In this document: positions 1,542 to 22,652 of the stretch, one piece after another
Layout: each line of letters opens with the position of its first letter
How positions within the stretch are numbered: the first letter of the stretch is position 1
DNA from: a virus
Length of the DNA stretch: 24,448 nucleotides
Strand: one strand, 5' to 3'
Virus record (IMG/VR): IMGVR_UViG_3300027816_000391
Coordinates: 1 to 24,448 of that record
The notes under the pieces: generated by a model
Databases searched by the model: none
What the model saw: the letters and a program-made list of their open reading frames with translations, nothing else
Told to the model about the DNA's origin: nothing
Position numbers and translations under genes: made by a program

Positions 1542-1596
1542 TAGACATTCTGGATGTCTAGACATAAATTCCCGCCATTCTGGCGGACGTGCCGCC
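1542..1596. promoter_or_regulatory. Paired repeat array, candidate operator or late-control region
   Basis: Two arrays lie in the gap between the HTH gene and the first structural gene. In the first, TAGACAT (1542-1548), a 5-nt spacer TCTGG and ATGTCTA (1554-1560) form a perfect inverted repeat. The second arm is part of the 12-bp palindrome ATGTCTAGACAT (1554-1565), so there are three half-sites. In the second, CCGCC (1572-1576), ATTCT, GGCGG (1582-1586), ACGTG, CCGCC (1592-1596) again gives three half-sites with 5-nt spacers. Both contain CATTCTGG, at 1546 and 1576, exactly 30 bp apart. Protein binding or RNA hairpins are both possible. I see no convincing -35/-10 pair, although TTGACT at 1524-1529 is a possible -35. 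Confidence 0.5.
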
Positions 1597-1609
1597 AACG
1601 TAATCAGAG

Positions 1610-1636
1610 GCCCGCATCTTGCGGGCTTTTTCGTTT
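1610..1636 (+). terminator. Rho-independent terminator upstream of the structural genes
   Basis: GCCCGC (1610-1615), loop ATCTT, GCGGGC (1621-1626), followed by TTTTTCGTTTT. This is a compact perfect 6-bp G/C stem with a T-rich tail on the + strand. It ends transcription coming from the HTH gene side or acts as the barrier that an antiterminator must overcome. The first structural gene begins 12 nt after it, with GAGG (1639-1642) as ribosome site. Confidence 0.8.
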
Positions 1637-1647
1637 TCGAGGTCTGC

Positions 1648-2055
1648 ATGGCAATCCAGCTCTCCACGACAGTACGCAACGCGCGGCTCGACGCGATCGA
1701 GACCGCGATCGGCGCGAGCGCCGTGCTCAAGATCCGCACGGGCGCGGCTCCCGCGAACTGCGGCACGGCCGACTCGGGCACCGTGCTCGCCACGGTCAAC
1801 CTGCCCTCCGACTGGATGGCAGCCGCCTCTGGCGGCTCGAAGGCGCTCTCCGGCTCGTGGGTGGACTCGAGCGCCGATAACACCGGCACCGCCGCGCACT
1901 TCCGCCTGTACGCCTCCGACGGCACGACCTGCCACCTGCAGGGCACCGTCACGCTCACGGCGGGCGGCGGCGACATGACCGTCGACTCGACGAGCTTCAC
2001 GGCCGGGCAGCAGTTCACGGTGACCGGCTTCACCCTGACCGACGCCAACAGCTGA
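1648..2055 (+). CDS. Conserved phage structural-type protein (135 aa)
   Basis: The first gene after the terminator. It belongs to a family often seen in phages of proteobacteria: it opens with MAIQLSTTVRNARLDAIE, a short N-terminal helix, and then a beta-rich body with KIRTGAAPANC, LPSDWMAAASGG and a C-terminal GGGDMTVD region ending in FTLTDANS. Low Lys, high Thr/Ser/Gly/Ala and no charged patches fit a virion surface or fibre-associated protein. The precise role is unknown; capsid decoration and fibre components are both possible. The sequence shows only the fold type and the company it keeps: five more structural-type genes follow without gaps. Confidence 0.7.
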   Translation: MAIQLSTTVRNARLDAIETAIGASAVLKIRTGAAPANCGTADSGTVLATVNLPSDWMAAASGGSKALSGSWVDSSADNTGTAAHFRLYASDGTTCHLQGTVTLTAGGGDMTVDSTSFTAGQQFTVTGFTLTDANS

Positions 2056-2056
2056 G

Positions 2057-2479
2057 ATGGCCGACAACCTCGGATATACGCCGGGAGCGGGCGCGGAGGT
2101 CGCGACCGACGACATCGGCGGCAAGCATCACCAGCGCATCAAGCTCGTCCTGGGCGCCGACGGCGTCTCGGACGGCGACGTCTCAAGCGCGAATCCGATG
2201 CCGGTGCGTGACGTCAATCACGACGACCTGGTGTTTTTGTTTCAGCGGATGCTCGCGTTTCTCGGCGCACCGCTCGGCTACGACAAGTCGCTGCAGCGCG
2301 GTCGCGTTTCGGCCGTTGTGGAGTCGGGCACCGTGACGACCGTCACTACCGTCACGACGGTGACGACCTGCGCGACGGTTACCAACTTGTCGACGATCGA
2401 CACGATGCAGGGGCGACTGCTCGTCAACGGGCAAAACGTCAGCGCATGGCACGCGTGCGTTCGCAGCCGGATCACTTGA
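2057..2479 (+). CDS. Conserved phage structural-type protein with Thr-Val repeat (140 aa)
   Basis: This gene starts one nucleotide after the previous stop. The N-terminal part (about 1-55) carries GYTPGAGAEVATDDIGG and LVLGADGVSDGDV, features of a family widespread among phages and usually linked to fibre or capsid-surface modules. A short helix (residues 57-70) follows. Residues 96-108 are a run of Val-Thr-Thr repeats from a tandem DNA tract. The C-terminus ends NGQNVSAWHACVRSRIT, a conserved tail-end motif of the family. Function is not established. Position within an unbroken row of structural-type genes supports a virion part. Confidence 0.7.
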   Translation: MADNLGYTPGAGAEVATDDIGGKHHQRIKLVLGADGVSDGDVSSANPMPVRDVNHDDLVFLFQRMLAFLGAPLGYDKSLQRGRVSAVVESGTVTTVTTVTTVTTCATVTNLSTIDTMQGRLLVNGQNVSAWHACVRSRIT

Positions 2480-2487
2480 GGTAGGAC

Positions 2488-4101
2488 ATGGCGAACACGT
2501 TCAAAAAGGTCATCGACCGGCTCATGTGGGCGCAGGTCGCACCGGCTCCCAACGCGCACGCTGCGGCTGCCTGCCTCGCGTCCGATATGCGCTCTGACCT
2601 TTCGCGCAATCCGTTCGTGTATCAGCTCGCGAGCAACACGGTCCTCAACCGGTACAACATCGTCACGAAGGGCTGGTCGTTTGTGCAGTCGCCGGCGCTG
2701 GCCGGTACTTTCGGCGCAGGCGCCGCGATGGCTTTCGCGCCTTCGCTCGGCCTGGTCGGCACGATCGCCGCAGGCGCGACGACGACTTCGGTCGTGCTCT
2801 CGACTGCGCTGCCGACGGCCGTGGGCCTGAATATGCTCGCCAATCGCGGCGGGTCGGGCGAGTACGGCTTTAAGCTGCGCATCATCGACACGACGGCCGG
2901 CAAGACCGCCGAGCGGTACATCACCGGCAACACCGCCGGCACGACGCCGACGATCACTGTGCAGAGCTCGTTCGGCTTCACGCCTTCGACGGGCGCGCGC
3001 TACGAAATCATCGCCGGCCGCGTGTTCATGCTCGGCGCCGGTACGCTGGCCTCGAACATTTGGCGCTCGTTTGAGGTGGCCTCGAACACGCTCTCGAGCG
3101 GCCTCTCGACGACGAACCTGCCTGCGACGATCGGAACCGACACCTCGATCATGGTGCTCGATGAGCAATACACGCCGTTTGACTGTTCGCCTGGCGATGG
3201 CGTGGTGAAAGGCAGTTACAACTACGACAGCGGCGTCGTCTCGCGCTATGCGCTCGCAGCGACCGCGTCGGGCGCCTCAACGATTACCGGCCAGGCCACA
3301 GGCGGCGACGCAGTAGTCGCAGCGAACGAATACCGCAATTTTCAGATCCGCATCGTCGAGGACGCCACGACGCCGGGTTCGGTCGGCCAGCGCCGCATCA
3401 TCGCCTCGCACACTGCGGGCGCTTCGCCCGTCTACACGCTCGGCACGGCCTGGACGACGCAGCCGTCGAGCTCGGCGAAGTACGTCATCGAATTGCCGAA
3501 CCTGATGCTCGTGCGTTCGTCGGCGACGACGACCGTCTACACGTACAACTACGGCGACGCGACCGTCAACAACGGCACGAACAGCATCGCCTCGGGCGCC
3601 TGGTCGACGACCTACTTCGGCGCGGCACCTGCCGCGAACGCGTCGGGCGGTATGTGGGCGCCGTCCTGGGGTATTCAGCCTGATGCTGGCCGCAATGCGC
3701 GCCACTCGTTCTGCTACTTCTTCCGCGGTGGCGCGACGACGCTCGACGTGCTCGACATCGCGGCGACCATCACTGGGACATGGACTGGCGCGATCACTTA
3801 CGACGGCAGCGTCGCGCTCACGGTCGGAACGTGCGGCACCTATTCGCCGTTCGAGAACGAGGGCCGGATGTTCTACATGAACATCTACGCGGCGTCGGCC
3901 GTGAGCCAAATGTACCGATTCGACGTACAGAATCGCGTCCTCTCACCGTTCACGCCGACGGATTTCCTGCAGGCCGGCACGGCCGCCCTCGGGCAGCGCA
4001 TGGCGGCATACGCCGCGATCGACGGAAATGACACCTACGACGTCGTGCTTCTGCAGTCGCACCTCTCGACGGTCTCGCAAGAAATGGTGGTCCTCGTATG
4101 A
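2488..4101 (+). CDS. Large putative virion protein, fibre/capsid-surface module (537 aa)
   Basis: A 537-residue, beta-rich, Thr/Ser/Gly/Ala-rich protein with an AGGTAGGAC-type ribosome site. The N-terminal 60 residues (MANTFKKVIDRLMW, then a helix and NPFVYQLASNTVLNRYNIVTKGW) form a conserved opening that I associate with a phage structural protein family lacking a firm function. A hydrophobic Gly/Ala region (about 70-125) contains AGATTTSVVLSTALP. From about residue 125 there are two similar blocks ending in ITGNTAGTTPT and IASHTAGASP, suggesting an internal duplication. The rest reads as beta strands. It is too long for a decoration protein and has no enzyme motif; a fibre, spike or surface-lattice protein is the best guess. 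Confidence 0.65.
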   Translation: MANTFKKVIDRLMWAQVAPAPNAHAAAACLASDMRSDLSRNPFVYQLASNTVLNRYNIVTKGWSFVQSPALAGTFGAGAAMAFAPSLGLVGTIAAGATTTSVVLSTALPTAVGLNMLANRGGSGEYGFKLRIIDTTAGKTAERYITGNTAGTTPTITVQSSFGFTPSTGARYEIIAGRVFMLGAGTLASNIWRSFEVASNTLSSGLSTTNLPATIGTDTSIMVLDEQYTPFDCSPGDGVVKGSYNYDSGVVSRYALAATASGASTITGQATGGDAVVAANEYRNFQIRIVEDATTPGSVGQRRIIASHTAGASPVYTLGTAWTTQPSSSAKYVIELPNLMLVRSSATTTVYTYNYGDATVNNGTNSIASGAWSTTYFGAAPAANASGGMWAPSWGIQPDAGRNARHSFCYFFRGGATTLDVLDIAATITGTWTGAITYDGSVALTVGTCGTYSPFENEGRMFYMNIYAASAVSQMYRFDVQNRVLSPFTPTDFLQAGTAALGQRMAAYAAIDGNDTYDVVLLQSHLSTVSQEMVVLV

Positions 4102-4262
4102 CCGTGCAGGAACTGATCGACGTCGCTAAAGCGCGACTCGGCTATCTTGCCAAGCAGCGCGAGACCGCCGTGCGCCTCGGTGACAGCAATCAGATCGCCT
4201 CGATCGACGCCGAAATCGCCGAGACGCAGGAGACGCTGACAAAGCTCCTGACCTTGGAGTAG
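4098..4262 (+). CDS. Small helical phage protein (54 aa)
   Basis: ATG 4098 overlaps the previous stop (ATGA) and the frame ends at TAG 4260-4262. The whole peptide is predicted helical with heptad-like spacing: ELIDVAKARLGYLAKQRETAV, then QIASIDAEIAETQETLTKLL. This two-helix coiled-coil signature is typical of a small protein commonly found among phage structural genes. Its role is unknown; assembly scaffold or trimerisation partner for neighbouring fibre proteins would fit. It has no cysteine and no membrane segment. Confidence 0.7.
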   Translation: MTVQELIDVAKARLGYLAKQRETAVRLGDSNQIASIDAEIAETQETLTKLLTLE

Positions 4263-4266
4263 TCCG

Positions 4267-5007
4267 ATGCTTCTCTCGCTACTTTCCCCGTCGGGGATAA
4301 GCGGCGGCATCGGAGTCGTCGACGTAACGCTCGGCGCGGTTACGCTCTCGGCGAGCGGCGAGCTCGTCACGACCGGCGTCAACGGGTCGCTCGATGCGAC
4401 GCTCGGCGCGGTTACGCTTTCGTCCGCGTCGCAGCTGCGGATCGCAGGATCGAGTGCAATCGCGCTCGATGCGCTGACGGTCTCGAGCTCGGGCGCGGTA
4501 CGGATCGCGGGCACGCTCGCGAAGACGCTCGACGCGGTGACGCTCGTCTCGACGGGCGAACTGACGAGCGGGATCTCCGGCACGCTCTCGGCCACGCTCG
4601 GAACGCTCACCTCGAGCGCCGATGGTCGCCTCGCGCTGCGGGCTACGCTCTCCGCTGGGCTCGGCACGCTTACGGGCGCATCGACCGCTCGGCTCGAGAT
4701 CGCAGGCAATCTCGCCGGCGCGCTTGGAACACTGACCGCAGGATCGGCCGCCACGCTGCCGATCGTCGGCACGCTTGCACGCGAGCTCGATGCGCTTACC
4801 GCCTCGGCTACCGCGCGGCTCGACCTGAACGGGAACCTGGTCGCCACGCTCGGGCCGCTTACGCTCGACGCCGAAGCGCTCGCGATTCCATACGAGTCGC
4901 CGGTATATCGGCAGGTGTCCATACGCGGACAAATTTCGACGGTTAGCGTCGCCAAAAATAAGGGCGGCACGGTTCGTGCGGGCAGCAGATCGACAACGGT
5001 GCACTGA
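4267..5007 (+). CDS. Repeat protein with ~21-residue beta repeats (246 aa)
   Basis: After a 20-residue leader (MLLSLLSPSGISGG...), residues about 20-205 consist of nine imperfect units of 21-24 residues of the form (T/D)LGALTLSSxGxLxIAGTLxx. A non-repetitive 40-residue tail with YESPVYRQVSIRG and a basic end (VRAGSRSTTVH) follows. Such regular hydrophobic-Gly-Thr spacing suggests a beta-solenoid or extended fibre shaft. Similar repeat proteins occur in phages in the same place, between small structural genes and the terminase. Repeat number is likely to vary between relatives. The stop overlaps the next ATG (TGATG). The shaft role is inferred from repeat form and context. Confidence 0.7.
   Translation: MLLSLLSPSGISGGIGVVDVTLGAVTLSASGELVTTGVNGSLDATLGAVTLSSASQLRIAGSSAIALDALTVSSSGAVRIAGTLAKTLDAVTLVSTGELTSGISGTLSATLGTLTSSADGRLALRATLSAGLGTLTGASTARLEIAGNLAGALGTLTAGSAATLPIVGTLARELDALTASATARLDLNGNLVATLGPLTLDAEALAIPYESPVYRQVSIRGQISTVSVAKNKGGTVRAGSRSTTVH
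4324..4878 (+). repeat. Tandem coding repeats, 63-72 nt unit
   Basis: Nine degenerate copies of a unit whose most constant part reads ACGCTCGGCGCGGTTACGCT or a close variant; near-identical copies occur at about 4327 and 4399. Units are 63-72 nt, always a multiple of three. They diverge at the DNA level more than at the protein level, so they look like old duplications kept for structure. Confidence 0.65.
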
Positions 5008-5267
5008 TGATTATCCACCTCGACTCGGCCGATTCCGCGAACGTCTCGATCAACTGGACGGACCTCGGCAATGCGACGGTCGCATCCGTTTCGTATACGC
5101 CGATCTCCGGGCTGACGCTCACCCCGCAAGGCGTGACCGGCTCCGTCTCGACGGTGCGGATCTCCGGCATGACGCACGGGCAGATCTACGCGCTCGAAGC
5201 GACGGCCACGCTCTCAACGGGCGAGACGCTGAATCGAAACGTCTCGATCCGCGCCTTCAACGGCTGA
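5007..5267 (+). CDS. Putative fibre-tail adaptor-like protein, Ig-like beta domain (86 aa)
   Basis: A single beta-sandwich-like domain. LDSADSANVSINWTDLG is followed by ATVASVSYTPISGLTLTP, VSTVRISGMTHGQIYALEATAT and ETLNRNVSIRAF. The order (short acidic start, INW strand, a T/S-rich 'sYTPisGLtl' strand, then an 'xiSGmthG' turn and a final strand) resembles the small phage fibre-tail adaptor family. That family would connect a fibre to its attachment point. The match is by pattern, not alignment, so it is moderate. It directly follows the repeat protein, with stop and start overlapping, which fits a partnership. Confidence 0.6.
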   Translation: MIIHLDSADSANVSINWTDLGNATVASVSYTPISGLTLTPQGVTGSVSTVRISGMTHGQIYALEATATLSTGETLNRNVSIRAFNG

Positions 5268-5269
5268 CG

Positions 5270-5659
5270 GTGCCGTTCGCGCCACCGAAACCGTGTAGCG
5301 CGCCAGGCTGCAAGGAGCTTGTGCCGCGCGGTCGATGGCGCTGCGAACAGCACGAAAAAGTCGCAGAGAAAACGCGCCAGGCTAGGGCGGGGACTGCGGC
5401 CGAACGTGGCTACGATCATTCATGGCGGCGGCGTCGGGCGGCCCACCTCGCGGCCGAGCCGCTCTGCAGACTCTGCAAGGCGAACGGACGACTCGTCGTC
5501 GCATCGGTCGCGGATCACATCGTTCCGCACCGAGGCGATCGGGCGCTATTCATGGGCGAGCTGCAGAGCTTGTGCGTTCACTGTCACTCGAGCGTGAAGC
5601 AGCGCGAAGAAGCGGCAGCACTCCGAAACGAACCGAGCGAAGCAACCGCGCGCACGTAG
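5270..5659 (+). CDS. HNH endonuclease, packaging-associated
   Basis: This begins at GTG 5270, 2 nt after the upstream stop, and gives 129 residues. A first zinc-knuckle-like part has Cys9, Cys14, Cys25 and His28. The second has Cys66-x2-Cys69 and Cys102-x2-Cys105, framing the beta-beta-alpha metal core: Asp82-His83, His87 and His106. This is the classic small HNH protein found beside terminase genes in HK97-type phages, where it helps terminase cut at cos. The residue where the motif's Asn normally sits (N-L/W-Q before SLC) reads Glu97-Leu-Gln, an unusual change. The gene directly precedes the non-coding region and the small terminase, as in other cos phages. Confidence 0.88.
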   Translation: MPFAPPKPCSAPGCKELVPRGRWRCEQHEKVAEKTRQARAGTAAERGYDHSWRRRRAAHLAAEPLCRLCKANGRLVVASVADHIVPHRGDRALFMGELQSLCVHCHSSVKQREEAAALRNEPSEATART

Positions 5660-5828
5660 CAACGCGCAGAGGCCGACGCGCGCACACGCACGCGGACGCC
5701 GACGCAACCCGAGGGACCGCAGCGACAAAGTCGCGCGAGGGGGAGGGCGGGTCGTATCCCTGGGGATACACGATATAGACCGGCCGGGTGCCCGAAATTA
5801 GGCACGGTCAAGATCAGGAAATGGGTTT
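5660..5828. other. Dyad-rich non-coding region, candidate cos packaging site
   Basis: A 169-nt gap between the HNH gene and the small terminase gene with no plausible coding sequence. It holds three hairpin-forming elements: GCGAC-AAA-GTCGC (5722-5734), GTATCCC-TG-GGGATAC (5754-5769) and GTGCC-8 nt-GGCAC (5788-5805). Between the first two lies a purine-rich run, GAGGGGGAGGGCGGG (5737-5751). There is no T-tract, so this is not an intrinsic terminator. Position between HNH and terminase is where cos lies in many Gram-negative siphophages. The exact nick positions and overhang cannot be told from sequence alone. Confidence 0.55.
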
Positions 5829-6251
5829 ATGCCAGGGCCACCGAAGACGCCAGCGAATCTCAAGCTCATCACGGGAACGGTGCGAAAAGATCGCGTCGAG
5901 ACCGGCGGGATCGATCTGCCGCTGGTCGATGAGGTGCCGTCGGCGCCCGAATGGCTGCCGAACGCGCACGCCGCGAACGAGTGGAAGCGCCTCGCGCCGA
6001 TCCTGGTCGCTAACAAGCTGTTAGCGGAAGCGGACCTCTCGGCCTTCGCTCATATGTGCGCCGTTCACGGAAAGATGGTGCAGCTCTGGACCGCGGGCGA
6101 GACGCCGACTGGTCACATGGTCTCCCAGTACAACTCGCTCGCCGCGGCCTTCGGGCTCTCGCCGGCCTGGCGATCGAAGGTCAAGCCGATTGGAAACAAG
6201 GACGAAGGCAACAAGTTCGCGAAGCTCAAGCCGGCCGACATCGCCGGCTGA
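5829..6251 (+). CDS. terS: Terminase small subunit, P27 family
   Basis: 140 residues starting with MPGPPKTPANLKLITGT, the hallmark opening of P27-type small terminases. A conserved PxxPEWLPNAHAANEWKRLAPIL block (about residues 38-61) and helices through LLAEADLSAFAHMC follow. The C-terminus, SPAWRSKVKPIG, matches the family's 'LSPxxRxKi' ending. It should bind the packaging site and bring the large subunit to it. Its last 62 nt overlap the proposed start of the large subunit, so the two are translated in a coupled manner. The dyad-rich region just upstream is its likely binding target (inference). Confidence 0.9.
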   Translation: MPGPPKTPANLKLITGTVRKDRVETGGIDLPLVDEVPSAPEWLPNAHAANEWKRLAPILVANKLLAEADLSAFAHMCAVHGKMVQLWTAGETPTGHMVSQYNSLAAAFGLSPAWRSKVKPIGNKDEGNKFAKLKPADIAG

Positions 6252-7923
6252 TTACGTCGCCGTCGCGATCGCCTACGCGGAAGAAGCCGCAAGCGATCGC
6301 AAGGGCAAGATGGTAGGCAAGTGGGTACGACTTGCCGCGAAGCGCTTCCTCGACGATCTGAAACGAGCGCCGAAGAAGTCCTGCACTTTCAACTGGAGCG
6401 CGGAGCAAGCAAACCAGGCTTGCTGGTTCATCGAACAGCTCCCGCACGTCGAAGGTGTCTGGGATTCTCCGACGATCAAGCTCGAACCGTCGCAGGTGTT
6501 TTTCATCTGCAACCTGTTCGGCTTTCGTAACGCGGACGGGACGCGTCGATTCACGACGGCGCTCTACGCGGTCGCGCGAAAGAACGCGAAGTCGGCGCTT
6601 GCGGCTGGAATCTTGCTGTACGTCTTCTGCACTGAGCCGGAGATCGGGCCGCAGGTCATCAGCGCGGCGACGACGGGCGACCAGGCGCGCATCGTTTGGG
6701 GCGTCGCGAAGCGGATGGTCGAGAAGCTCCCCGATCTTCGGGAAGCATTTACCCTCGAGCCGTTTGCGAACGCGATCGCGCGCTACGAGAACGGCGGGAC
6801 GTTTAAGCCGATCAACGCGAAGGCATCGACGCAGGACGGACTGAACCCGTCGGCCTTGTGTTTCGACGAGCTGCACGCGCACAAGACGCGCGACCTGTTC
6901 GACGTCCTACGCTCTGCGACGGGCGCTCGAAAGAATCCGCTTTTTCTGTACACGACCACCGAGGGCTACGAGAACCCCGGCCCGTGGGCCGAGGTCCGCA
7001 AGTTCGCCTGGCAGGTGCTCGAGGGCGTGGTCGAAGCCGATCACTTCCTGGCCGTCTACTACGCGCTCGACGACGCCGACGACGACTTCGACGAGAGCAA
7101 GTGGATCAAGGCGAACCCGCTCCTCGGCGTGTCGGTGTCGCTCGAGAAGCTGCGCGAGTACGCGACCGAGGCGAAGCAGCTGCCGGGCGTGCTCTCCGAG
7201 TTTCGGATCAAGCGCCTGAACCGGCCGGCCGCTGCGGCGACGGCATGGATTGACCTTCGCAAGTGGAAGCGCTGCTCCGGTGCGGTCGAGCTCGACGAGC
7301 TCGAGGGCGCCCGGTGCTGGGCCGCCTTCGACCTGGCCTCGACGCGGGACATGACCGCCTGGCGCATCGTCTGGGAGCGCGGCGGCGAGTTCTATACCTG
7401 GGGCCGCTACTGGGTTCCCGAGGCTGCGGTGCATCAACGCACGGAGCGCGGGTCGGTGCCGTATCGGTCCTGGATGGAGCAGGGGCTGATCCAGATGACC
7501 GAGGGCGACGTCACGGACTACGCCGCGGTCGAGCGGGACATCCTCGCGGACTGCGCGCGGTTCCGGCCGATCGAGGTCGCCTACGACGCGTGGAACGCGA
7601 CCGACCTCGTGAACCGACTGGTCGCCGCCGGACTTCCGCTCGTGCAGTTCATCCAGGGCGCGCGGTCGTTTCAGCCGGGCTTCCAGGCGCTCGAACGGGC
7701 CTACGTCGCGAAGAAGCTGCACCACGGCGGCGATCCGGTGCTGACCTGGAACGCCTCGAACCTCGTGCCGCGGCGGGACCAGAACCTAAACCTCGCGCCG
7801 GATAAGCGGCGGTCGGCGGAGAAGATCGACGGGATCGTGTGCCTTCTCATGGCGATGGCGCGCGCGTCGGTCGACGAGGTGCGTCCCTCGGTCTATGAAA
7901 CGCAAGGAATTACGGTGATCTGA
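6190..7923 (+). CDS. terL: Terminase large subunit (ATPase and nuclease)
   Basis: A 577-residue packaging motor of the Terminase_1 type. The start is uncertain: TTG 6190 gives a 62-nt overlap with the small subunit. The conserved N-terminus ADYVAVAIAYAEEA begins about residue 20, so the next ATG (6310, residue 41) is too late. The ATPase domain has the Walker A-like VARKNAKSA (about 127-135) and the Walker B FDELH with Asp-Glu (about 225-229), then a YTTTEGYENPG coupling motif. The nuclease domain has Asp381 in AFDLASTRDM, an acidic 'YDAWNATDL' near 460 and Asp546 in KIDGIVCLL. The stop overlaps the portal ATG. It translocates DNA into proheads and cuts it. Confidence 0.93.
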   Translation: METRTKATSSRSSSRPTSPADYVAVAIAYAEEAASDRKGKMVGKWVRLAAKRFLDDLKRAPKKSCTFNWSAEQANQACWFIEQLPHVEGVWDSPTIKLEPSQVFFICNLFGFRNADGTRRFTTALYAVARKNAKSALAAGILLYVFCTEPEIGPQVISAATTGDQARIVWGVAKRMVEKLPDLREAFTLEPFANAIARYENGGTFKPINAKASTQDGLNPSALCFDELHAHKTRDLFDVLRSATGARKNPLFLYTTTEGYENPGPWAEVRKFAWQVLEGVVEADHFLAVYYALDDADDDFDESKWIKANPLLGVSVSLEKLREYATEAKQLPGVLSEFRIKRLNRPAAAATAWIDLRKWKRCSGAVELDELEGARCWAAFDLASTRDMTAWRIVWERGGEFYTWGRYWVPEAAVHQRTERGSVPYRSWMEQGLIQMTEGDVTDYAAVERDILADCARFRPIEVAYDAWNATDLVNRLVAAGLPLVQFIQGARSFQPGFQALERAYVAKKLHHGGDPVLTWNASNLVPRRDQNLNLAPDKRRSAEKIDGIVCLLMAMARASVDEVRPSVYETQGITVI

Positions 7924-9107
7924 TGTCAATTCTCGACCGACTCTTTAGCCGCAAGTCGACGCCGGACCAGATCCTGCGCTCCGCCCTTCTCGGGTCGAGC
8001 TCCGTCTCCGGCGCCTACGTCTCGGCCGAGTCGTCGATGCGGATCGCGGCGGTGCACGCTTCGGTCTCTGTTATTTCGAAAACCGTCGCCAGCCTGCCGC
8101 TGCACGTATATGAGCGGACTTCGACGGGCAAGCAACGCGCGGTAGCGCATCCGCTGTACGAGCTCCTGCACGCGTCTCCGAACGCCTGGCAGACCTCCTT
8201 CGAGTTCCGCTCGATGATGCAGTGGAACCTCTGCCTGCGCGGTAATGCGTTCGCATTGATCGTCTGGGCCGATCGCGACCGCGTGCTCGAGCTCATCCCG
8301 CTGCACCCTGACCGGATGACGGTCGGCCAGCTCGACGATTTGACGCTCACCTACGAGTACCTGCGGCCAAACGGCGCGCGGGTCGTGTTCCCTGCCGAGG
8401 AGATCCTGCACATCCGCGGGCTCTCCTCGGACGGCATCCTCGGACGCTCCGTGATCTCCGACGCGCGCGACGTGATCGGGATCGCCCAGGCGACGCAGGA
8501 GTACGCCGGGCGCTTGTTCAAAAACGACGCGACGCCTGGCGTGGTGATCCAGTCCCCGAAGCCGCTCGGCAAGGAGGCCGCCGCGCGCCTTCGCGACTCG
8601 TGGAACGACGCCTTCGCGGGCTCGGGCAACGCGCGCCGAACGGCCGTGCTCGAGGACGGGCTGACCGTCGAGAAACTCTCGATGACCGCCGACGACGCGC
8701 AGTTCCTCGAGACGCGGAAATTCACGCGCTCGGAGATCGCGGGCCTCTTTGGTGTACCGGCTCACCTGATCGGTGACCTCGAGCGCTCGACGTTCTCGAA
8801 CATCGAGCACCAGGGCATCGAGTTCGCCACCCACTGCATCCGCCCGTGGGTCGTGAACTGGGAGCAGGCGATCGCGCGCGCACTGCTGACCGCGCCGCGA
8901 AAGTATTTCGCGGAATTCAACCTCGACGCGCTGACGCGCGGCGATCTGAAGTCCCGATACGACGCCTACGCGATCGGTCGGAACTGGGGCTGGCTCTCGG
9001 CGAACGACATCCGCGCGCTCGAGAACATGAACGCCATCGACGGCGGGGACACCTACCTACAGCCACTGAATATGCAACGCGCAGGCGCACCCGCCGCGCA
9101 GGAGTAG
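7923..9107 (+). CDS. Portal protein, HK97 family
   Basis: 394 residues, a usual length for HK97-type portals. Recognisable stretches include AAVHASVSVISKTVASLPLH (about 41-61) and HPLYELLHASPNAWQTSFEF. Then come QWNLCLRGNAFA, the 'eilHIRGLSSDGILGRS' block (about 160-176), the GRLFKNDATPGVV stem region (about 196-209) and a C-terminal helix region with FGVPAHLIGDLERSTFSNIEHQ. It forms the twelve-part ring at the capsid vertex through which DNA passes, and it binds terminase and then the head-tail connector proteins. It starts in a TGATG overlap with terL and is followed after 6 nt by the protease, the standard order. Confidence 0.94.
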   Translation: MSILDRLFSRKSTPDQILRSALLGSSSVSGAYVSAESSMRIAAVHASVSVISKTVASLPLHVYERTSTGKQRAVAHPLYELLHASPNAWQTSFEFRSMMQWNLCLRGNAFALIVWADRDRVLELIPLHPDRMTVGQLDDLTLTYEYLRPNGARVVFPAEEILHIRGLSSDGILGRSVISDARDVIGIAQATQEYAGRLFKNDATPGVVIQSPKPLGKEAAARLRDSWNDAFAGSGNARRTAVLEDGLTVEKLSMTADDAQFLETRKFTRSEIAGLFGVPAHLIGDLERSTFSNIEHQGIEFATHCIRPWVVNWEQAIARALLTAPRKYFAEFNLDALTRGDLKSRYDAYAIGRNWGWLSANDIRALENMNAIDGGDTYLQPLNMQRAGAPAAQE

Positions 9108-9113
9108 AAGGGG

Positions 9114-9758
9114 ATGGAAGTGAAACAGATGCGCGTCGTCGCCGAGATCAAGGCGGTCGACGACGAGGGGACGATCGAGGGCTACGGCTCGATCTTCGGG
9201 AACGTCGATTCCTACGGCGACGTCGTCGCGAAGGGCGCCTTCACGCGCACGCTCGAGGAGTCGAAGGGCTCGGGCCGGATGCCTGCGATGCTCTGGCAGC
9301 ACAACCCCGACGAGCCGATCGGCGTGTGGACCTCGATGAGCGAGGACGCGAAGGGGCTCTACGTCAAGGGCAAGCTCGCCGAGACGCAGCGCGGCCGCGA
9401 GGCGCTCGCGCTCATCAAGATGGGCGCGCTCTCCGGTCTCTCGATCGGCTACTCGACGGTCGCCGCGGACTACGACACGGGCAAAGACATCCGCGTCCTG
9501 ACCGACGTCGACCTTTGGGAGGTGTCGCCTGTGACCTTCCCCGCCAACGACAAGGCGCGGATCACCGCCGCGAAAAGCGCGGAGATCAAGACGCGCCGAG
9601 ATTTTGAGGGATTCCTGCGGGACGCCGGATTCTCTCGCGCCGAGGCGAAGCGCATCGCTTCCCACGGCTTCGATCCAGATCAGCGGGACGCTGACGAGGA
9701 TTCATCCGACGACCTGCTGAAAGTAATCGAAGCGGCACGCACGGCGATCGCCGGCTGA
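9114..9758 (+). CDS. Prohead protease, HK97 (U35) family
   Basis: 214 residues with the full signature of the phage prohead protease: GYGSIFGNVDSYGDVVAKGAF (about 24-44), WQHNPDEPIG with catalytic His63, MGALSGLSIGY with the nucleophile Ser107 or Ser110, and DLWEVSPVTFPAND. The herpesvirus-assemblin-like enzyme removes the capsid scaffold domain and then itself. The C-terminal 50 residues carry a helical RDFEGFLRDAGFSRAEAKRIA segment, probably the scaffold or capsid targeting part. ATG 9114 has AAGGGG directly before it; ATG 9129 (residue 6) is better spaced from a GGAAG site and is a possible alternative start. Confidence 0.93.
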   Translation: MEVKQMRVVAEIKAVDDEGTIEGYGSIFGNVDSYGDVVAKGAFTRTLEESKGSGRMPAMLWQHNPDEPIGVWTSMSEDAKGLYVKGKLAETQRGREALALIKMGALSGLSIGYSTVAADYDTGKDIRVLTDVDLWEVSPVTFPANDKARITAAKSAEIKTRRDFEGFLRDAGFSRAEAKRIASHGFDPDQRDADEDSSDDLLKVIEAARTAIAG

Positions 9759-9792
9759 CCGCAATCATCCATTCTTTGAAGGAGTACTGACT

Positions 9793-11007
9793 ATGTCCAC
9801 CGAAATCAAGAACGCCGTCGAGGCGCTCGCGAAGTCCGTCGAGGACTTCCGCGCCGTCGATCGGGACTACAAGAGCCGCGCCGAGGCCGAGATCCGCGAG
9901 GCCCGCGAGAAGGCGAGCGCCGCGATCGACGCCGCCGAGGCTGCGAAGAAGGCCGCCGAGGAGGCCACGAAGAAGGCCGCTCGCGCGACTGTCGGCGGTG
10001 CCGCCGGCGATGCGAACGTCGACAAGGCCGAGCACAAGAAGGCCTTCGGCGCGTTCCTGCGCAAGGGCATCGAGACGGGTCTCGCCGACCTCGAGCGCAA
10101 GGCCGTCAACGTGACGACCGCTGGCGATGGTGGCTACGCGCTGCCGGAGCAGATCGAGTCGGTCATCGCGCAGCGCCTGCTCGACATCTCCCCGGTCCGC
10201 TCCGTGGCGAACGTCGTGTCGGTTTCGACCAGCGACTACAAGCAGCTCGTCGACACCCGCGGCATGGCCTCGGGCTGGGTCGGTGAGGCCGCCGCTCGCA
10301 CCGCGACGAACACGCCGACCTTCTACGAGGCCGCGGCGTACATGGGCGAGATCTACGCCAACCCGCAGGCGACGCAGCAGTCGCTCGACGATCTGATGTT
10401 CAACGTCGAGGCCTGGATCGCCAGCTCGATCGCCGACGAGTTCGCCTACCAGGAAGGCGGCGCGTTCGTCTCGGGCAACGGCACGAGCAAGCCGCGCGGC
10501 TTCCTCAACTACTCGACCGCCGCCACCGCCGACTCGTCGCGCGCCTGGGGCACCCTCGAGCACGTTGCCACCGGCGTCTCGGCCGACTTCGCCGCCTCGA
10601 ACAAGGGCGACAAGCTGGTCGAGCTCGTCTACAAGCTCAAGGCCGGCCACCGTGCAAACGCGGTGTGGATGACGAACAAGGCGATCCTCGCCGAGATTCG
10701 CGCGTTCAAGGAATCCACCACGAACGCCTACCTCTGGCAGCCGGGCCTCGCAGCCGGTCAGCCGAGCACGCTGCTCGGCTACCGCGTGATCGAGGCCGAG
10801 GATATCCCGGCGAAGGCCGCGAACTCGCTCTCGATCGCCTTCGGCGATTTCCGCGCGGGTTACACCGTGGTCGATCGCGTCGGCATCCGCTCGCTCCGCG
10901 ACCCGTACTCGAACAAGCCGTACGTCGGCTTCTACGTGACGAAGCGCGTCGGCGGCATGGTCGTGAACAGCGAGGCCATCAAGGTCTTGAAGTTCAGCAC
11001 CACCTGA
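9793..11007 (+). CDS. Major capsid protein, HK97 fold, with scaffold delta domain
   Basis: 404 residues preceded by a strong ribosome site, AAGGAG (9779-9784), eight bases from the ATG. Residues 1 to about 105 form an Ala/Lys/Glu-rich coiled-coil delta domain (for example KSRAEAEIREAREKASAAID) that acts as scaffold. The mature shell domain begins near NVTTAGDGGYALPE (Asn106 on), so cleavage is predicted around residues 100-106. Other family landmarks are ISPVRSVANVV, the E-loop region VDTRGMASGWVGEA, EIYANPQATQQSLDD and FVSGNGTSKPRGFLNY. The C-terminus KPYVGFYVTKRVGGMVVNSEA is typical. A strong terminator follows, consistent with very high and separately tuned expression. Confidence 0.95.
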   Translation: MSTEIKNAVEALAKSVEDFRAVDRDYKSRAEAEIREAREKASAAIDAAEAAKKAAEEATKKAARATVGGAAGDANVDKAEHKKAFGAFLRKGIETGLADLERKAVNVTTAGDGGYALPEQIESVIAQRLLDISPVRSVANVVSVSTSDYKQLVDTRGMASGWVGEAAARTATNTPTFYEAAAYMGEIYANPQATQQSLDDLMFNVEAWIASSIADEFAYQEGGAFVSGNGTSKPRGFLNYSTAATADSSRAWGTLEHVATGVSADFAASNKGDKLVELVYKLKAGHRANAVWMTNKAILAEIRAFKESTTNAYLWQPGLAAGQPSTLLGYRVIEAEDIPAKAANSLSIAFGDFRAGYTVVDRVGIRSLRDPYSNKPYVGFYVTKRVGGMVVNSEAIKVLKFSTT

Positions 11008-11031
11008 TCGGGTCTAGTCCGACCCTCGAGA

Positions 11032-11063
11032 GGGGGCCACCTTCGGGTGGCTCCCTTTCTTTT
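11032..11063 (+). terminator. Rho-independent terminator after the capsid gene
   Basis: A 10-bp stem, GGGGGCCACC (11032-11041) with GGTGGCTCCC (11046-11055) including one G-T pair, is closed by the stable TTCG tetraloop and followed by TTTCTTTT. It sits 24 nt after the capsid stop. The next gene starts 12 nt downstream, so some readthrough or antitermination must supply the tail genes. Confidence 0.9.
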
Positions 11064-11074
11064 GTGGAGCATCC

Positions 11075-11275
11075 ATGCAGATCGAAGTCATCAAGAATTT
11101 CGCCTACGCCTACGGCGGCACCGATGTCGTGCATTACACCGCCGGCGAGACGTTCGACGTCCCCGACGAGTGTGGCGAACTTGCAATCGCAGAGGGCTGG
11201 GCGTCCGCGCCTGGCGTGAAGGCCGTGAAGCCGGCCGCGACTAAGGCCCGAAAGGCCGCACCCGAGAACAAGTGA
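11075..11275 (+). CDS. Small conserved protein of the capsid-connector interval (66 aa)
   Basis: Starts at ATG 11075 with GGAG (11065-11068) upstream. The N-terminal 45 residues form a small beta-like domain: MQIEVIKNFAYAYGG, VVHYTAGETFDVPDECGELAIAEGWA. The last 20 residues are Lys/Ala/Pro-rich (KAVKPAATKARKAAPENK), probably disordered. Proteins of this size and pattern (a 'G-x-x-F-x-V-p-d-x-x-a-x-x-L-x-x-x-G-x-A' fragment) often sit between the HK97-type capsid and connector genes. The function is unknown; a minor head or neck role fits. The end overlaps the next gene if that starts at GTG 11272. Confidence 0.75.
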   Translation: MQIEVIKNFAYAYGGTDVVHYTAGETFDVPDECGELAIAEGWASAPGVKAVKPAATKARKAAPENK

Positions 11276-11277
11276 CA

Positions 11278-11871
11278 ATGGACTACGGATTGCGCCTTAT
11301 CACCGGGCCGACGATCGACCCGGTCTCGCTCGCCGAAGCGCGCGCGCATTGCCGCATCGACGAGAGTGCCGACGACGGGCTCGTCGCCGGGTATCTCATG
11401 GCGGCGCGTTCGTACATTGAGAGCACGACCGGGCTCTCGCTGATCTCGCAGACCTGGGAGATGACGCTGCACGACTGGCCACTCGCCGACGAGGGCATCG
11501 TACTGCCGCGTCAGCCGGTGCAGTCGGTGACCTCGGTGCAGTACTACGACACGGCCGGCGCGCTGCAGACGCTCGCGAGCGCGGCATACGAGATCGACAC
11601 CTCGGCGATGCCGGCGCAGATCGTTCTCGCCGACGGCTACTCGTGGCCGCAGCTCGACGATCGGCTCGCTCCGGTCGTCATCCGTTTCGTCGCCGGCTAC
11701 GGCGCCTCGCCGGGTTCGATCCCGGAGGCTATCCGCCACGCGATCTTACTGCTCGTCGGGCACTTCTACGCAAACCGCGAACAGGTGGTCGTCGGAGCAG
11801 GCCTCGCGGTCGCGCAGCTGCAGTACGGCGTCGACGCTCTGATCGCGCCCTACAAAGTGCGCGGGTTCTAA
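11278..11871 (+). CDS. Head-tail connector protein, HK97 gp6-like
   Basis: 197 residues from ATG 11278; GTG 11272, six bases earlier, makes a GTGA overlap with the previous stop and would add two residues. I keep the ATG, but both are possible. The N-terminus has LITGPTIDPVSLAEARAHCRID, then DDGLVAGYLMAARSYIESTTG, the standard opening of the gp6/adaptor (Phage_connect) family. RQPVQSVTSVQYYD and VVIRFVAGYG lie in the middle, and a helix AIRHAILLLVGHFYANRE is near the C-terminus. It forms the ring under the portal onto which the stopper docks. The next ATG directly follows its stop. Confidence 0.88.
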   Translation: MDYGLRLITGPTIDPVSLAEARAHCRIDESADDGLVAGYLMAARSYIESTTGLSLISQTWEMTLHDWPLADEGIVLPRQPVQSVTSVQYYDTAGALQTLASAAYEIDTSAMPAQIVLADGYSWPQLDDRLAPVVIRFVAGYGASPGSIPEAIRHAILLLVGHFYANREQVVVGAGLAVAQLQYGVDALIAPYKVRGF

Positions 11872-12195
11872 ATGCGCGCCGGTCGTCTCGATCGTCGCGT
11901 CACGATCGAAAGCAAGACGGTCACGCGCGACGACTTCGGCGCCGAGGTCGTTACCTGGTCGACCTTTGCCGAGGTCTGGGCCGAGGTTCGGGACGTTAAC
12001 TCCGTCGAGAAGGTCGTCGACCAGCTGCGGACGATGACGCGTCTCACGATGGTGACGACGCGCTACGTCCCAGGCGTCACGACGGATATGCGCGTGCGCG
12101 TGAACGGCGACGGTCGATTGCTTGCGATCGCCTCGCTCGCCGAGGTCGGTCGGAAGCTCGGCTGGTCGATGGCGTGCGAGCAGTACAGTGCTTGA
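11872..12195 (+). CDS. Head closure / head-tail adaptor protein (SPP1 gp16-like fold)
   Basis: 107 residues beginning MRAGRLDRRVTIES, the clear signature of the phage head-tail joining family (Phage_H_T_join), followed by DDFGAEVVTWSTFAEVWAEV with the conserved W-x2-F-x3-WAE pattern. The rest forms a beta barrel: TRLTMVTTRYVPGVTTDMRV and a final strand LLAIASLAEVGR. It closes the connector after packaging. ATG 11872 immediately follows the previous stop. Its 3' end overlaps the next gene's GTG by 8 nt, so no gap is left. Confidence 0.9.
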   Translation: MRAGRLDRRVTIESKTVTRDDFGAEVVTWSTFAEVWAEVRDVNSVEKVVDQLRTMTRLTMVTTRYVPGVTTDMRVRVNGDGRLLAIASLAEVGRKLGWSMACEQYSA

Positions 12196-12703
12196 CCTCG
12201 AGGTTAAAGGCCTGCGCGAGCTCGACACGCTGCTCGCCGGGCTGCCCGACAAGCTGCGCGCGAACATCCTCCGCGGGGCTCTGAACGCCGCCGGCAAGGA
12301 GATCGCCGAGGAGGCTCGGCGGCTCGCTCCGGTGCAGACGGGAACCCTGCGCGACTCGATCCGCGTCTCGACACGGCTCGTCCGCGGGACGACGAACGTC
12401 GAGGCGAAGGTCAAGGTCGGCGGCAAGCAAAAGGGCAAGCGGTCGGTCTTCTACGCGCGGTTCATCGAGTTCGGAACCGCCGCGCACATCATTCGCGGGC
12501 GCAACGGCCCGCTCAAGTTCAACGGCACGCACACGCTTGAGGTCGCGCACCCAGGCGTGAAGAAGAAGCCGTTCATGCGACCGGCGCTCGACGCTCGGTT
12601 ACCGAGCGCGCTTGAGGCCTTCCGCGAGCGGCTGCGCAAGCGCATGACGAAGGAAGGCATCAACCTGCCGGAGGAGTTCCTCCCGGCCGAGGACGACGAA
12701 TGA
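12188..12703 (+). CDS. Neck/tail component, HK97 gp10 family
   Basis: Starts at GTG 12188, eight nucleotides inside the previous gene; no later start keeps the conserved N-terminus VKGLRELDTLLAGLPDKL. It is 171 residues long. The family features seen are a helix pair with ALNAAGKEIAEEARRLAPVQTGTLRDSI (the 'aP-x-x-tG-x-L-r-x-s' motif), the strand FYARFIEFGTAAH, and the tail VKKKPFMRPALDA with the 'pFmrPA' motif. It is the tail-completion or neck protein joining tail tube and head. The insertion with KVGGKQKGKRS is basic. The stop overlaps the next ATG (ATGA at 12700). Confidence 0.9.
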   Translation: MLDLEVKGLRELDTLLAGLPDKLRANILRGALNAAGKEIAEEARRLAPVQTGTLRDSIRVSTRLVRGTTNVEAKVKVGGKQKGKRSVFYARFIEFGTAAHIIRGRNGPLKFNGTHTLEVAHPGVKKKPFMRPALDARLPSALEAFRERLRKRMTKEGINLPEEFLPAEDDE

Positions 12704-13101
12704 GAGCCGAGAAGGTAGTCAAGACGCTGCTCGGCAACGCCGCGGGCGTCTCCGCCCTGGTCGGTGCTCGGATCTATCCGGGCCCGATTCCGCAGGGCAC
12801 GACGCTGCCGGCGATCAGCTACGAGCACATATCGACCGTGCCTCTGCGCACGCTCGACGCGGCGGCCGGGTACAGCCTGGTGCAGTCGCGGATCGAGTGC
12901 ACCGCGGTCGCGAAGACCTACGGCGAGCAGAAGGCGCTCGTCGAGGAGATCCGCAAGGCGCTCGACTACCAGCGCGGCACCGTGGCGTCGATCGAGGTCG
13001 TCTCGATCCTTCGCGGGGCGGCGGGTCCAGATATTCGGGACGACGACGTGCAGCTCTACACGCAAGCCGTCGATTTCCTCGTGACGCTTCGAGAGATTTA
13101 G
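12700..13101 (+). CDS. Tail completion protein, DUF3168 family
   Basis: 133 residues overlapping the previous gene by the ATGA junction. The pattern fits DUF3168 tail-terminator-like proteins: an N-terminal helix with VVKTLLGNAAGVSALVG, the strand RIYPGPIPQGTTLPAISYEHIS, then an SLVQSRIECTAVAKTYGEQKALVEEIRKAL section with alternating strand and helix, and a final strand VQLYTQAVDFLVTLRE. It likely forms the ring capping the tail tube at the head side. A weak hairpin lies 10 nt after the stop, separating this neck group from the tube gene. Confidence 0.88.
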   Translation: MRAEKVVKTLLGNAAGVSALVGARIYPGPIPQGTTLPAISYEHISTVPLRTLDAAAGYSLVQSRIECTAVAKTYGEQKALVEEIRKALDYQRGTVASIEVVSILRGAAGPDIRDDDVQLYTQAVDFLVTLREI

Positions 13102-13111
13102 TTCAACTACC

Positions 13112-13132
13112 GCCGCGGGGCGCGGCATTTTC
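13112..13132 (+). terminator. Possible weak intrinsic terminator before the tail tube gene
   Basis: GCCGCG (13112-13117), loop GGG, CGCGGC (13121-13126), followed by ATTTTC. The stem is perfect, but the T-run is short and broken. It lies between the neck genes and the tube gene's strong ribosome site (AGGAGAG, 13138-13144). It could also act as a processing hairpin protecting the tube transcript's 5' end. Confidence 0.5.
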
Positions 13133-13151
13133 ATACTAGGAGAGTACGACC

Positions 13152-14363
13152 ATGCCGAATCCAGCATCCGGCGTTTTTAAGCAACTGGCCTATAAGGCCG
13201 AATCGACCTACGGCACCGTACCGAGCGCCTCCGGCGCTCAGTCGCTGCGCCGCGTTCAGTCCACCCTTGACCTCGCGAAGGACGCGTACCAGTCGAACGA
13301 GATCCGACTCGATCAGCAGATCGCGGACTTTCGTCACGGCGTGCGCCGCGTCAGCGGCAAAATCACCGGCGAGCTCTCGCCGGCGACGTACAAGGACTTC
13401 TTCGCCCAGGCGCTGCGCAAGGCGTTCGTGGCCGGATCGTCCGCCTCGTCGGTCTCGCTGACGATCGCGGGCTCGGGCCCGTACACGATCACGCGCGGCT
13501 CGGGTTCGTACCTCACCGACGGCTTCAAGGTCGGCGACGTCGTGCGCATCACCGCGGGCTCGGTGAACGCGAACAACCTAAACAAGAACGTGCTCGTCAC
13601 CGGCCTCACCGGCACGGTCATCACTGGGATCGTGCTCAACGGCACGACGATGACCGCCGAAGGCCCGATCGCCTCGTGCACCATCGCGGCCACCGGCAAG
13701 AAGTCGTTCGTGCCGCTCACCGGGCACACCGACAACTCGTTCTCGATCGAACACTTCTACGCGGACCTCGGTCAGTCGGAAGTGTTCTCGGGCTGCAAGG
13801 CCTCGCGGATCGCGCTCGCGATGCCGCCGTCTGGAATGGTGACCTTCGACGCTGACGTCATGGGACAGAACGTGACGACCGCCGCGTCGCAGTACTTCAC
13901 CTCGCCGACCGCCGCGACGACGACCGGCTGCCTGGCCGCCGTGAACGGCGTGCTGCGCGTGGGCGGCTCGACCGTCGCGACGCTGACCGGCCTCTCGGTC
14001 GACATCAACAGCAATTATTCGGGCGACCCGGTGGTCGGCTCGAATACCGTGCCGTTCCTGTTCCCCGGCCGCGTCCTCGTGTCCGGCCAGGCGACCGCGT
14101 ACTTCGACAGCGTGACGCTGCGCGATGCGTTCCTCAACGAGACCGAGCTCGATCTGATCGCCGCCTTCACGACGGGCAGCGCAAAGGATTCGGACTTCCT
14201 GACCGTCGTCCTGCCGCGCATCAAGCTCGGCGGCGCGGCCAAGTCGGACGGCGAGGGCGGCCTCATCCAGACGATCCCGTTCCAGGCGCTCCTGAACACC
14301 GCCGGCGGCACGGGCATCGCCACCGAGGCGACCACGATCGCGATCCAGGACTCGGCGGCCTGA
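13152..14363 (+). CDS. Major tail tube protein (Phage_tube_2-like)
   Basis: 403 residues, with ribosome site AGGAGAG seven bases before the ATG. The N-terminus reads YKAESTYGTVPSASGAQ, then SLRRVQSTLDLAKDAYQSNE and RVSGKITGELSPATYKDFF, all features of the large tail tube family. Residues about 90-180 (SSASSVSLTIAGSGPYTITR... to TGLTGTVIT...) look like an inserted domain seen in larger members of the family. DNSFSIEHFYADLGQSEVFSG and INSNYSGDPVVGSNTVPF are typical core blocks. It polymerises around the tape measure to form the tail. It is flanked by hairpins on both sides, as for a highly expressed single-gene transcript. Confidence 0.9.
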   Translation: MPNPASGVFKQLAYKAESTYGTVPSASGAQSLRRVQSTLDLAKDAYQSNEIRLDQQIADFRHGVRRVSGKITGELSPATYKDFFAQALRKAFVAGSSASSVSLTIAGSGPYTITRGSGSYLTDGFKVGDVVRITAGSVNANNLNKNVLVTGLTGTVITGIVLNGTTMTAEGPIASCTIAATGKKSFVPLTGHTDNSFSIEHFYADLGQSEVFSGCKASRIALAMPPSGMVTFDADVMGQNVTTAASQYFTSPTAATTTGCLAAVNGVLRVGGSTVATLTGLSVDINSNYSGDPVVGSNTVPFLFPGRVLVSGQATAYFDSVTLRDAFLNETELDLIAAFTTGSAKDSDFLTVVLPRIKLGGAAKSDGEGGLIQTIPFQALLNTAGGTGIATEATTIAIQDSAA

Positions 14364-14375
14364 CGTCGATTTGCC

Positions 14376-14429
14376 GGCACCGGCCGGACCGCCTCTCGCA
14401 GGGGCGGCCGGTCGGTGTCCGGTTTCTTT
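14376..14429 (+). terminator. Strong intrinsic terminator after the tail tube gene
   Basis: The 5' arm 14376-14393 pairs with 14403-14419 over 17 base pairs, with one bulged A and two G-T pairs, followed by TTTCTTTG (14423-14430). The T-tract begins three bases after the stem. It lies 13 nt after the tube stop and 21 nt before the chaperone ATG, so it probably reduces transcription of the chaperone and tape measure relative to the tube. Confidence 0.85.
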
Positions 14430-14450
14430 GTTCAACCCCTGCGAGGAAAT

Positions 14451-14867
14451 ATGACTACAGAAACTTTGTTTGACGTCGATTCGATTGCGGACATCGGCTC
14501 CGCGGAAGTGAACCTGAAGGTCAACGGCCAGCCGGTGCCTGGCGTGTTCGTCACGCTTGCCGGTCCCGAGCACGCGGTTCGCAAGAGCTACGCGCTCGAC
14601 AAGGCGCGCCGGATGCGCAAGCAGCTCGCCCGCACGGGCAAGCTCGAGCTCGACGATCCGGTCGACGAGCAGGAGGACGAGACCGTTCACATGGCCTCGT
14701 GCGTCCTCGCCTGGCGCGGCATCGGCAAGGGCGGCCAGGCGCTGCCCTGCACGAAGGAGAACGTCCTCGCGCTGCTCGCTGATCCGGCGAAGGGCTGGTT
14801 CCGTCGCGCGGTGAAGGAGGCGCTCGACGACGTCGAGAATTTTATCAAGCGCTCCGCCGCGCCCTAA
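14451..14867 (+). CDS. Tail assembly chaperone (gpG-like)
   Basis: Starts at ATG 14451 with GAGGAAAT directly upstream; an in-frame ATG at 14415 lies inside the terminator hairpin and is rejected. It is 138 residues long. Residues about 21-120 have the form VNLKVNGQPVPGVFVTLAGPEHAVRKSYALDKARR, then an acidic DDPVDEQEDE loop, VHMASCVLAWRG, LPCTKENVLALLAD and a final helix RRAVKEALDDVENFIKR. This is the usual shape and place (tube - chaperone - tape measure) of the gpG-type tail chaperone. A second domain is encoded in the -1 frame after it. It binds tape measure during tail assembly and is not part of the virion. Confidence 0.85.
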   Translation: MTTETLFDVDSIADIGSAEVNLKVNGQPVPGVFVTLAGPEHAVRKSYALDKARRMRKQLARTGKLELDDPVDEQEDETVHMASCVLAWRGIGKGGQALPCTKENVLALLADPAKGWFRRAVKEALDDVENFIKRSAAP

Positions 14868-15205
14868 TCGCGGCGGCAGAGCGCGAGATCGAGCTCGGCA
14901 CGCGCCTCGAGGACGGCGCGACGCTACGGACTCACCTGCAGCGCTACGCGGTATCGACCGGCAAGGTCGACCCGCGACTCGATGCGCCTGCAATCCCGGC
15001 GGCGGTCCGCCCGCTCTGGGAGATCTTCCTCTCGCTCGCAGGGGCGAGGCGTTCCGGTATGGGCGCCTCGCCGCTTGCGCTATCGGACGTCGAGGCGTGG
15101 TGCCGGCTCACCGGCACGCGGCTCACGACGTGGGAACTCGACACGCTGCTCGCGATTGACCAGACGGCGATCGCAGCGGCGAACACTCAAAAGGCGACCT
15201 CATAG
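14843..15205 (+). CDS. -1 frame extension of the tail chaperone (gpGT-like T domain)
   Basis: The frame offset by -1 from the chaperone is open from 14783 to TAG 15203-15205 and contains no ATG, GTG or TTG before codon 14969 or so. It codes for a well-formed domain: YQALRRALIAAAEREIELGTRL, WEIFLSLAGARRSGMGASPL, then WCRLTGTRLTTWELDTLLAID, the typical 'T' domain pattern of gpGT proteins. The most plausible link is a -1 slip at TTT in GAATTTTAT (14837-14845), giving a ~251-residue fusion (14451-14843 then 14843-15205). No perfect X-XXY-YYZ heptamer exists, so the exact slip site is inferred. The stop abuts the tape measure ATG. Confidence 0.75.
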   Translation, partial: YQALRRALIAAAEREIELGTRLEDGATLRTHLQRYAVSTGKVDPRLDAPAIPAAVRPLWEIFLSLAGARRSGMGASPLALSDVEAWCRLTGTRLTTWELDTLLAIDQTAIAAANTQKATS

Positions 15206-22648: not shown

Positions 22649-22652
22649 CGCC

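Follow-up and report, generated by a model that had tools for sequence, protein, structure and literature searches.

A candidate Q-type late-gene control region in a viral genome, next to the gene for a probable Q antiterminator of a new family

Introduction

The element bound by the Q protein of phage 21 lies in the spacer of the P_R′ promoter and consists of two 6-bp direct repeats, TGAGCA, with a critical C at −21 and −13 (PMC6606751). Helices H3 to H6 of 21Q have been described as sigma-region-4-like (PMC6606751; Shi et al. 2019). For phage lambda, an extra −35-like element is required for Q loading (PMC6606751). AlpA of Pseudomonas aeruginosa has no sequence homology to 21Q and has a similar fold (PMC9371919).

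Here we describe a locus in a viral sequence of 24,448 nt (IMG/VR record IMGVR_UViG_3300027816_000391, positions 1 to 24,448; one strand, 5′ to 3′), the whole of which is termed the window. Sequence comparisons indicate that the gap at 1528 to 1647 is very probably a late-gene control region for Q-type processive antitermination with a layout like that of phage 21. Shared with phage 21 are a candidate Q gene, a sigma70 promoter whose −35/−10 spacer contains two subsites repeated directly at a distance of 8 bp, a short leader with an intrinsic terminator (t_R′) before the late genes, and a predicted sigma-region-4-like C-terminal part of the regulator. The window differs in that its subsites read TCTAGACR rather than TGAGCA, its repeats are shifted upstream by about 3 bp, its protein has 121 amino acids and falls below Pfam detection while 21Q has 162 (PF06530), and its leader includes a hairpin in a fixed position, a pause element not being evident. 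The docking site in the −35/−10 spacer and the terminator downstream are also found with AlpA, but there one AlpA occupies a single GGGACG site, whereas the window has two repeated sites (PMC9371919). GafZ, which drives the structural gene cluster of a Caulobacter gene transfer agent, is similar in having a putative element between −35 and −10 and differs in acting with GafY and IHF and in a predicted structure that reportedly resembles neither Q nor AlpA (PMC11150451). Lambda Q and P_R′ have a Q-binding element between −35 and −10, a promoter-proximal pause and a late-gene terminator; the window resembles them in its candidate element and terminator and may do so in an early pause. Lambda Q (PF03589) differs in giving no Pfam match to the window protein family. 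The original prediction, which drew attention to this gap, knew of no named element with this form, but the form matches that of a Q-binding element in a late promoter with a leader hairpin and a terminator downstream. Loci of this kind, with Q-type late antitermination, are already known; what would be new is the putative regulator family, which current libraries do not recognize.

Results and Discussion

The anatomy of the locus, its conservation, repeat geometry, predicted fold and synteny were observed or computed directly. The arrangement of Q-dependent late loci, in which the regulator gene is directly 5′ of the late promoter and the late genes lie 3′, was present (Table 1), and the promoter was the only sigma70-like one within the first 6 kb of the window (9 of 12 matches, 17-nt spacer).

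Table 1. Features of the candidate late-gene control region (window coordinates)
Feature	Coordinates	Strand	Remarks
Candidate Q-type antiterminator, 121 aa	1162..1527	+	N-terminal helices and predicted C-terminal sigma-region-4-like HTH
−35 hexamer TAGACA	1542..1547	+	Sigma70-like promoter scan; aligned TTGAC/TTTAC/TTGAT in relatives
Candidate Q-binding element, subsite 1 TCTGGATG	1549..1556	+	−28 to −21; period-8 repeat with subsite 2
Candidate Q-binding element, subsite 2 TCTAGACA	1557..1564	+	−20 to −13; TCTAGAC kept in 7/10 further loci
−10 hexamer TAAATT	1565..1570	+	Predicted transcription start about 1577, placed by spacing
Possible −10-like pause element CATTCT	1576..1581	+	About −1 to +5
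Leader RNA hairpin UGGCGG-ACGUG-CCGCCA	1581..1597	+	About +5 to +21; counterpart hairpins in relatives
Intrinsic terminator, t_R′-like	1606..1634	+	11-bp stem and T run; 5′ of late genes
Co-directional late genes	1648..23966	+	PHROG matches, ORF list

Use of the first structural gene (1648 to 2055, phrog_3758) as a lead yielded 80 viral loci. The whole gap was kept in L002/L003, L015/L017 and L026/L027, and in these the protein ending before the gap was homologous to the 1162-1527 product. Profile searches and one DNA-pattern scan added L201 to L210, L225, L243, L244, L245, L247, L248 and L249. No match was obtained in a single-sequence search of viral contigs, in a protein-level search of annotated phages with the window protein, or in a first scan of genome contigs with four sequences; a wider profile run on genome contigs found one metagenome-assembled genome. 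A three-part module, comprising a promoter with spacer repeats, a hairpin at a fixed place and a terminator before the late genes, was kept after the regulator gene in 11 distinct loci including the window, the ten others being viral contigs and the one metagenome-assembled genome and encoding homologues 33 to 74% identical to the window protein. Two further homologues, L245 and L248, had neither element nor terminator after the regulator gene. These comparisons agree with the earlier proposals that the gap is where a late regulator would act and that the upstream HTH protein is its natural partner.

A scan of viral contigs for DNA alone (GTCTAGAC, then CGGGCTTTTT 42 to 72 nt on), with protein data left aside, recovered the loci already known together with a new one, L225; the remaining matches look unrelated. 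In L225 a regulator homologue, 43% identical, ends 3 nt before the element, and the hairpin stands at the same distance from the element as in other loci, while the spacer repeat has only 3 of 8 matches. The presence of a diverged regulator homologue beside this element bore out the prediction from element to protein.

The gap had been singled out for two arrays, each of three alternating half-sites, TAGACAT-TCTGG-ATGTCTA-GACAT (1542 to 1565) and CCGCC-ATTCT-GGCGG-ACGTG-CCGCC (1572 to 1596), which were regarded as equivalent, tied by CATTCTGG 30 bp apart and read on one DNA face. Letters and coordinates were right, and CATTCTGG does stand at 1546 and 1576, its only two copies in the window. 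When the 120-bp gap was shuffled with dinucleotides kept, however, 5% of the shuffles had a repeated 8-mer and 4.5% a perfect inverted repeat at least 7 bp long, and a repeated 8-mer was present in 35% of the 120-bp segments that make up the window; these eye-catching features are therefore close to chance expectation. The shared CATTCTGG was rejected as a signal, as the pair is absent from the ten other loci and such repeats are common by chance. Nor do the arrays stand as units, since the conserved features cut across both. Array 1 is a −35 hexamer and two 8-bp direct repeats, running into a −10 located between the arrays. In array 2, only half-sites 2 and 3 (GGCGG ACGTG CCGCC) have positional counterparts in relatives, as a hairpin, and the first CCGCC occurs in the window alone. 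Alignment of the gap in relatives thus failed to retain the CATTCTGG pair and its 30-bp spacing but did reveal hairpin arms that vary yet pair. The palindrome GTCTAGAC is perfect in 7 of 11 loci and lost in L243 and L244. Rather than being unconserved apart from the terminator, the gap is conserved, though in features other than those originally named.

Across the module loci, the −35 (TTGACT, TTTACA, TTTATC, TTGATG, TTGCAG or TTGATT in relatives) and the −10 are 17 to 18 nt apart, and the spacer is filled by two 8-bp direct repeats, followed after 0 to 2 nt by a TAnnnT-like −10 in relatives. This conserved candidate element thus sits between −35 and −10 in all 11 loci at the sequence level and has the two direct repeats 8 bp apart that characterize the phage 21 type. 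The repeats are TCTGGATG and TCTAGACA in the window and L203, TCTAGGCG and TCTAGACG in L205, CCTAGACG and TCTAGACG in L207, TCTGAACG and TCTAAACT in L243, and TGAGACAG and TGAGACAC in L244. Over the 11 loci, which are partly related to one another, identity at offset 8 was 0.67 versus at most 0.27 at every other offset from 4 to 14. When the eight columns of subsite 1 were permuted in all loci at once, so that kinship was kept, the observed 59 of 88 matches was reached by 1 of 40,320 permutations, the identity itself (2.5e-5). The five loci found after the hypothesis gave, by themselves, 26 of 40 matches, equalled by 5 permutations (1.2e-4), and L244 alone gave a P of 0.005. The same 8-bp period in the spacer is shared by four known 21Q-type phages: the SE1 spacer reads TTGACA-TCAA-TGAGCA-AA-TGAGCA, and HK639, Pm34 and ST64T have 5/6 repeats at the period of phage 21. 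The sequence of the site drifts (TGAGCA, TCTAGACR, TGAGACAS) while the 8-bp spacing holds, which suggests that the placement of two protomers on RNA polymerase determines the spacing. A further copy of GTCTAGAC, possibly an accessory site, was observed in four loci at the regulator stop codon or just past it, about 26 to 41 bp 5′ of the main element (L207, 3361 to 3410; L209, 1397 to 1445; L247, 690 to 740; L249, 815 to 865). Separately, TTGACCGTCTAGACC 5′ of the terminase small-subunit gene (L015, 9212; L017, 7229) holds a second GTCTAGAC, the promoter geometry of the main element being absent there.

In the loci examined, the distance from subsite 2 to the loop centre of the leader hairpin is 22 to 25.5 nt, and the arms (GGCGG/CCGCC, GGGCG/CGCCC, GGGGCG/CGCCCC, GGCGC/GCGCC and GGGG/CCCC; L244, L247 and L249 read by eye) are unrelated in sequence yet paired. 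A fixed place combined with drifting arms argues for a role as RNA, and the hairpin may serve to retain the leader RNA within the loaded complex, to impede backtracking or to shield the 5′ end. Possible leader hairpins were also seen by eye in HK639 and Pm34, so the fixed hairpin may not be special. The hexamer just before the hairpin, the possible −10-like pause element, has a final T in 9 of 11 loci and an A at position 2 in few. The terminator is at the same place, between promoter and first gene, in all 11 loci. In the window alone, GGCGG has a second possible partner within 1572 to 1597, the first CCGCC; this pairing competes with the conserved hairpin, so that two mutually exclusive leader folds exist.

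These observations bear on three other explanations of the gap. The palindrome ATGTCTAGACAT could be the operator of a dimeric repressor or activator controlling initiation, with the terminator merely ending an early operon. The perfect GTCTAGAC palindrome in 7 of 11 loci, the window included, the second upstream copy in L207, L209, L247 and L249 and the predicted sigma-region-4-like HTH of the protein would all suit an operator. The direct repeat, however, outlasts the palindrome, with 6 of 8 matches in L243, which has GTCTAAAC, and 7 of 8 in L244, which has no palindrome; direct matching of the two 8-mers is far above inverted matching (42 versus 19 of 64), and the terminator between promoter and first gene in all 11 loci would be superfluous for a plain activator. 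We therefore regard an operator as unlikely.

Still less probable is a put-like or attenuator RNA acting in cis, in which no protein would be needed and the hairpins of array 2 would themselves bring about antitermination or attenuation. In favor of such an RNA, a hairpin with compensated arms stands at a fixed position between promoter and terminator, and the two CCGCC copies of the window could compete for one GGCGG; but the competing arm occurs only in the window, a search of Rfam gave no match, and the spacer repeats and linked HTH gene would be left unexplained. In put RNAs, loop and arms are conserved in sequence, unlike those of the hairpin of this module. Hardly any credence can be given to the idea of two related in-phase operator arrays linked by CATTCTGG, which has the sequence as stated in its favor but is contradicted by comparison, being kept in 0 of 10 other loci, and by the commonness of such 8-mer repeats in the window. 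Of the two options put forward in the original prediction, an operator on one DNA face or an RNA element for antitermination, antitermination is the best reading, and the in-phase arrays are not upheld.

The 1162-1527 protein probably belongs to a new family of Q antiterminators, unrecognized by Pfam or PHROGs: searches of both with this protein gave no match, a PF06530 search of the whole record found nothing, and no family member reached the Pfam Q cutoffs (PF06530; lambda Q, PF03589; Q82, PF06323) or the PHROG cutoff. The protein was therefore not filed under PF06530. Weak but collinear alignment with PF06530-type Q proteins (QuuD, ST64T, SE1, HK639, Pm34, L024 and others) was nevertheless suggested by profile comparison, with a P of 3.6e-4 over 109 columns, nearly full length; this P fell from 0.018 to 0.0019 to 3.6e-4 as the family alignment grew. 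QuuD matches 21Q at 7.6e-7. No clear late promoter was seen downstream of Escherichia coli QuuD, where nmpC and IS5 lie, and QuuD was therefore used solely as a sequence link to 21Q.

Structure models of modest confidence (mean pLDDT of 61 and 70) predicted six helices, with a C-terminal half of sigma-region-4 fold, a trait of 21Q (PF06530). Residues 51 to 121 of the L207 homologue model matched sigma-L region 4 (3hug) with a Z of 9.6 and an rmsd of 1.5 Å over 71 amino acids, and the window protein model matched sigma region 4 domains with Z values of 6.4 to 6.8. The chains of 21Q were absent among the fold matches listed, an absence that does not amount to exclusion, and a search of a viral fold library gave no confident match. 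PDB sequence searches before the wider profile gave chance matches only; with the widest profile, the top match was sigma-L region 4, at a nonsignificant E of 0.25.

For a Q-type locus of this layout, we infer protein binding, pausing, loading and antitermination as follows. RNA polymerase would start at about 1577 from the sigma70-type promoter (−35 at 1542, −10 at 1565), pause early and be held near the promoter. Without the regulator, it would stop at the terminator at 1606 to 1634, and the leader transcript would then be about 55 nt long. The 1162-1527 protein would bind the two 8-bp direct repeats at 1549 to 1564 and join the promoter-near polymerase, and the loaded complex would read through 1606 to 1634 and later terminators, turning on about 22 kb of late genes. 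This would assign a probable function, and a DNA target, to a phage regulator family that lacks annotation and lies outside the enterobacterial phages used for work on Q. A more speculative proposal, which is rather doubtful, is that the family is separate from Q21, Q82 and lambda Q, with an 8-bp two-protomer docking reached or kept and with loading dependent on the +5 to +21 hairpin; the hairpin may then serve, for example, as a bead keeping the nozzle threaded or as a block to backtracking. If true, the fixed-place hairpin would be a part with no described counterpart in known Q systems.

The late genes of the window encode a virion protein, TerS, TerL, portal, protease, capsid, head-tail adaptor, tail proteins, tape measure and tail fibre. 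Where annotated, the genes after the terminator in relatives are virion or terS/terL genes, and in L244 the module is followed directly by terS and terL. In L014, L024 and L028, which have the same downstream gene, the slot is filled instead by a PF06530/phrog_79 Q protein. That of L024 is a diverged Q protein (PF06530 and phrog_79 at 1.7e-4 and 1.6e-7), and at 4447 to 5000 its gene precedes a promoter of its own (TTGAAT...GATACT), then a GTGGTCGT/ACGATCAC leader hairpin and finally a terminator. The regulator and element of L202 (3366 to 3490) are nearly identical to those of L203, while the gene after the terminator is different; regulator and element therefore travel together between late operons.

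Other observations concerned the downstream genes of the window. Tandem 9-bp repeats resembling ACCGTGACG (2330 to 2383) lie in the gene at 2057 to 2479 and encode Thr/Val repeats. The DNA from 2328 to 4086, over the gene at 2488 to 4101, is 71% identical to that of Synechococcus phage MinM1, and the terminase is nearest to those of Pseudomonas phages, so the genome is mosaic. The listed ORF of the terminase large subunit begins with TTG and shares 62 nt (6190 to 6251) with the end of the small-subunit ORF; the true start of the large subunit may be further in.
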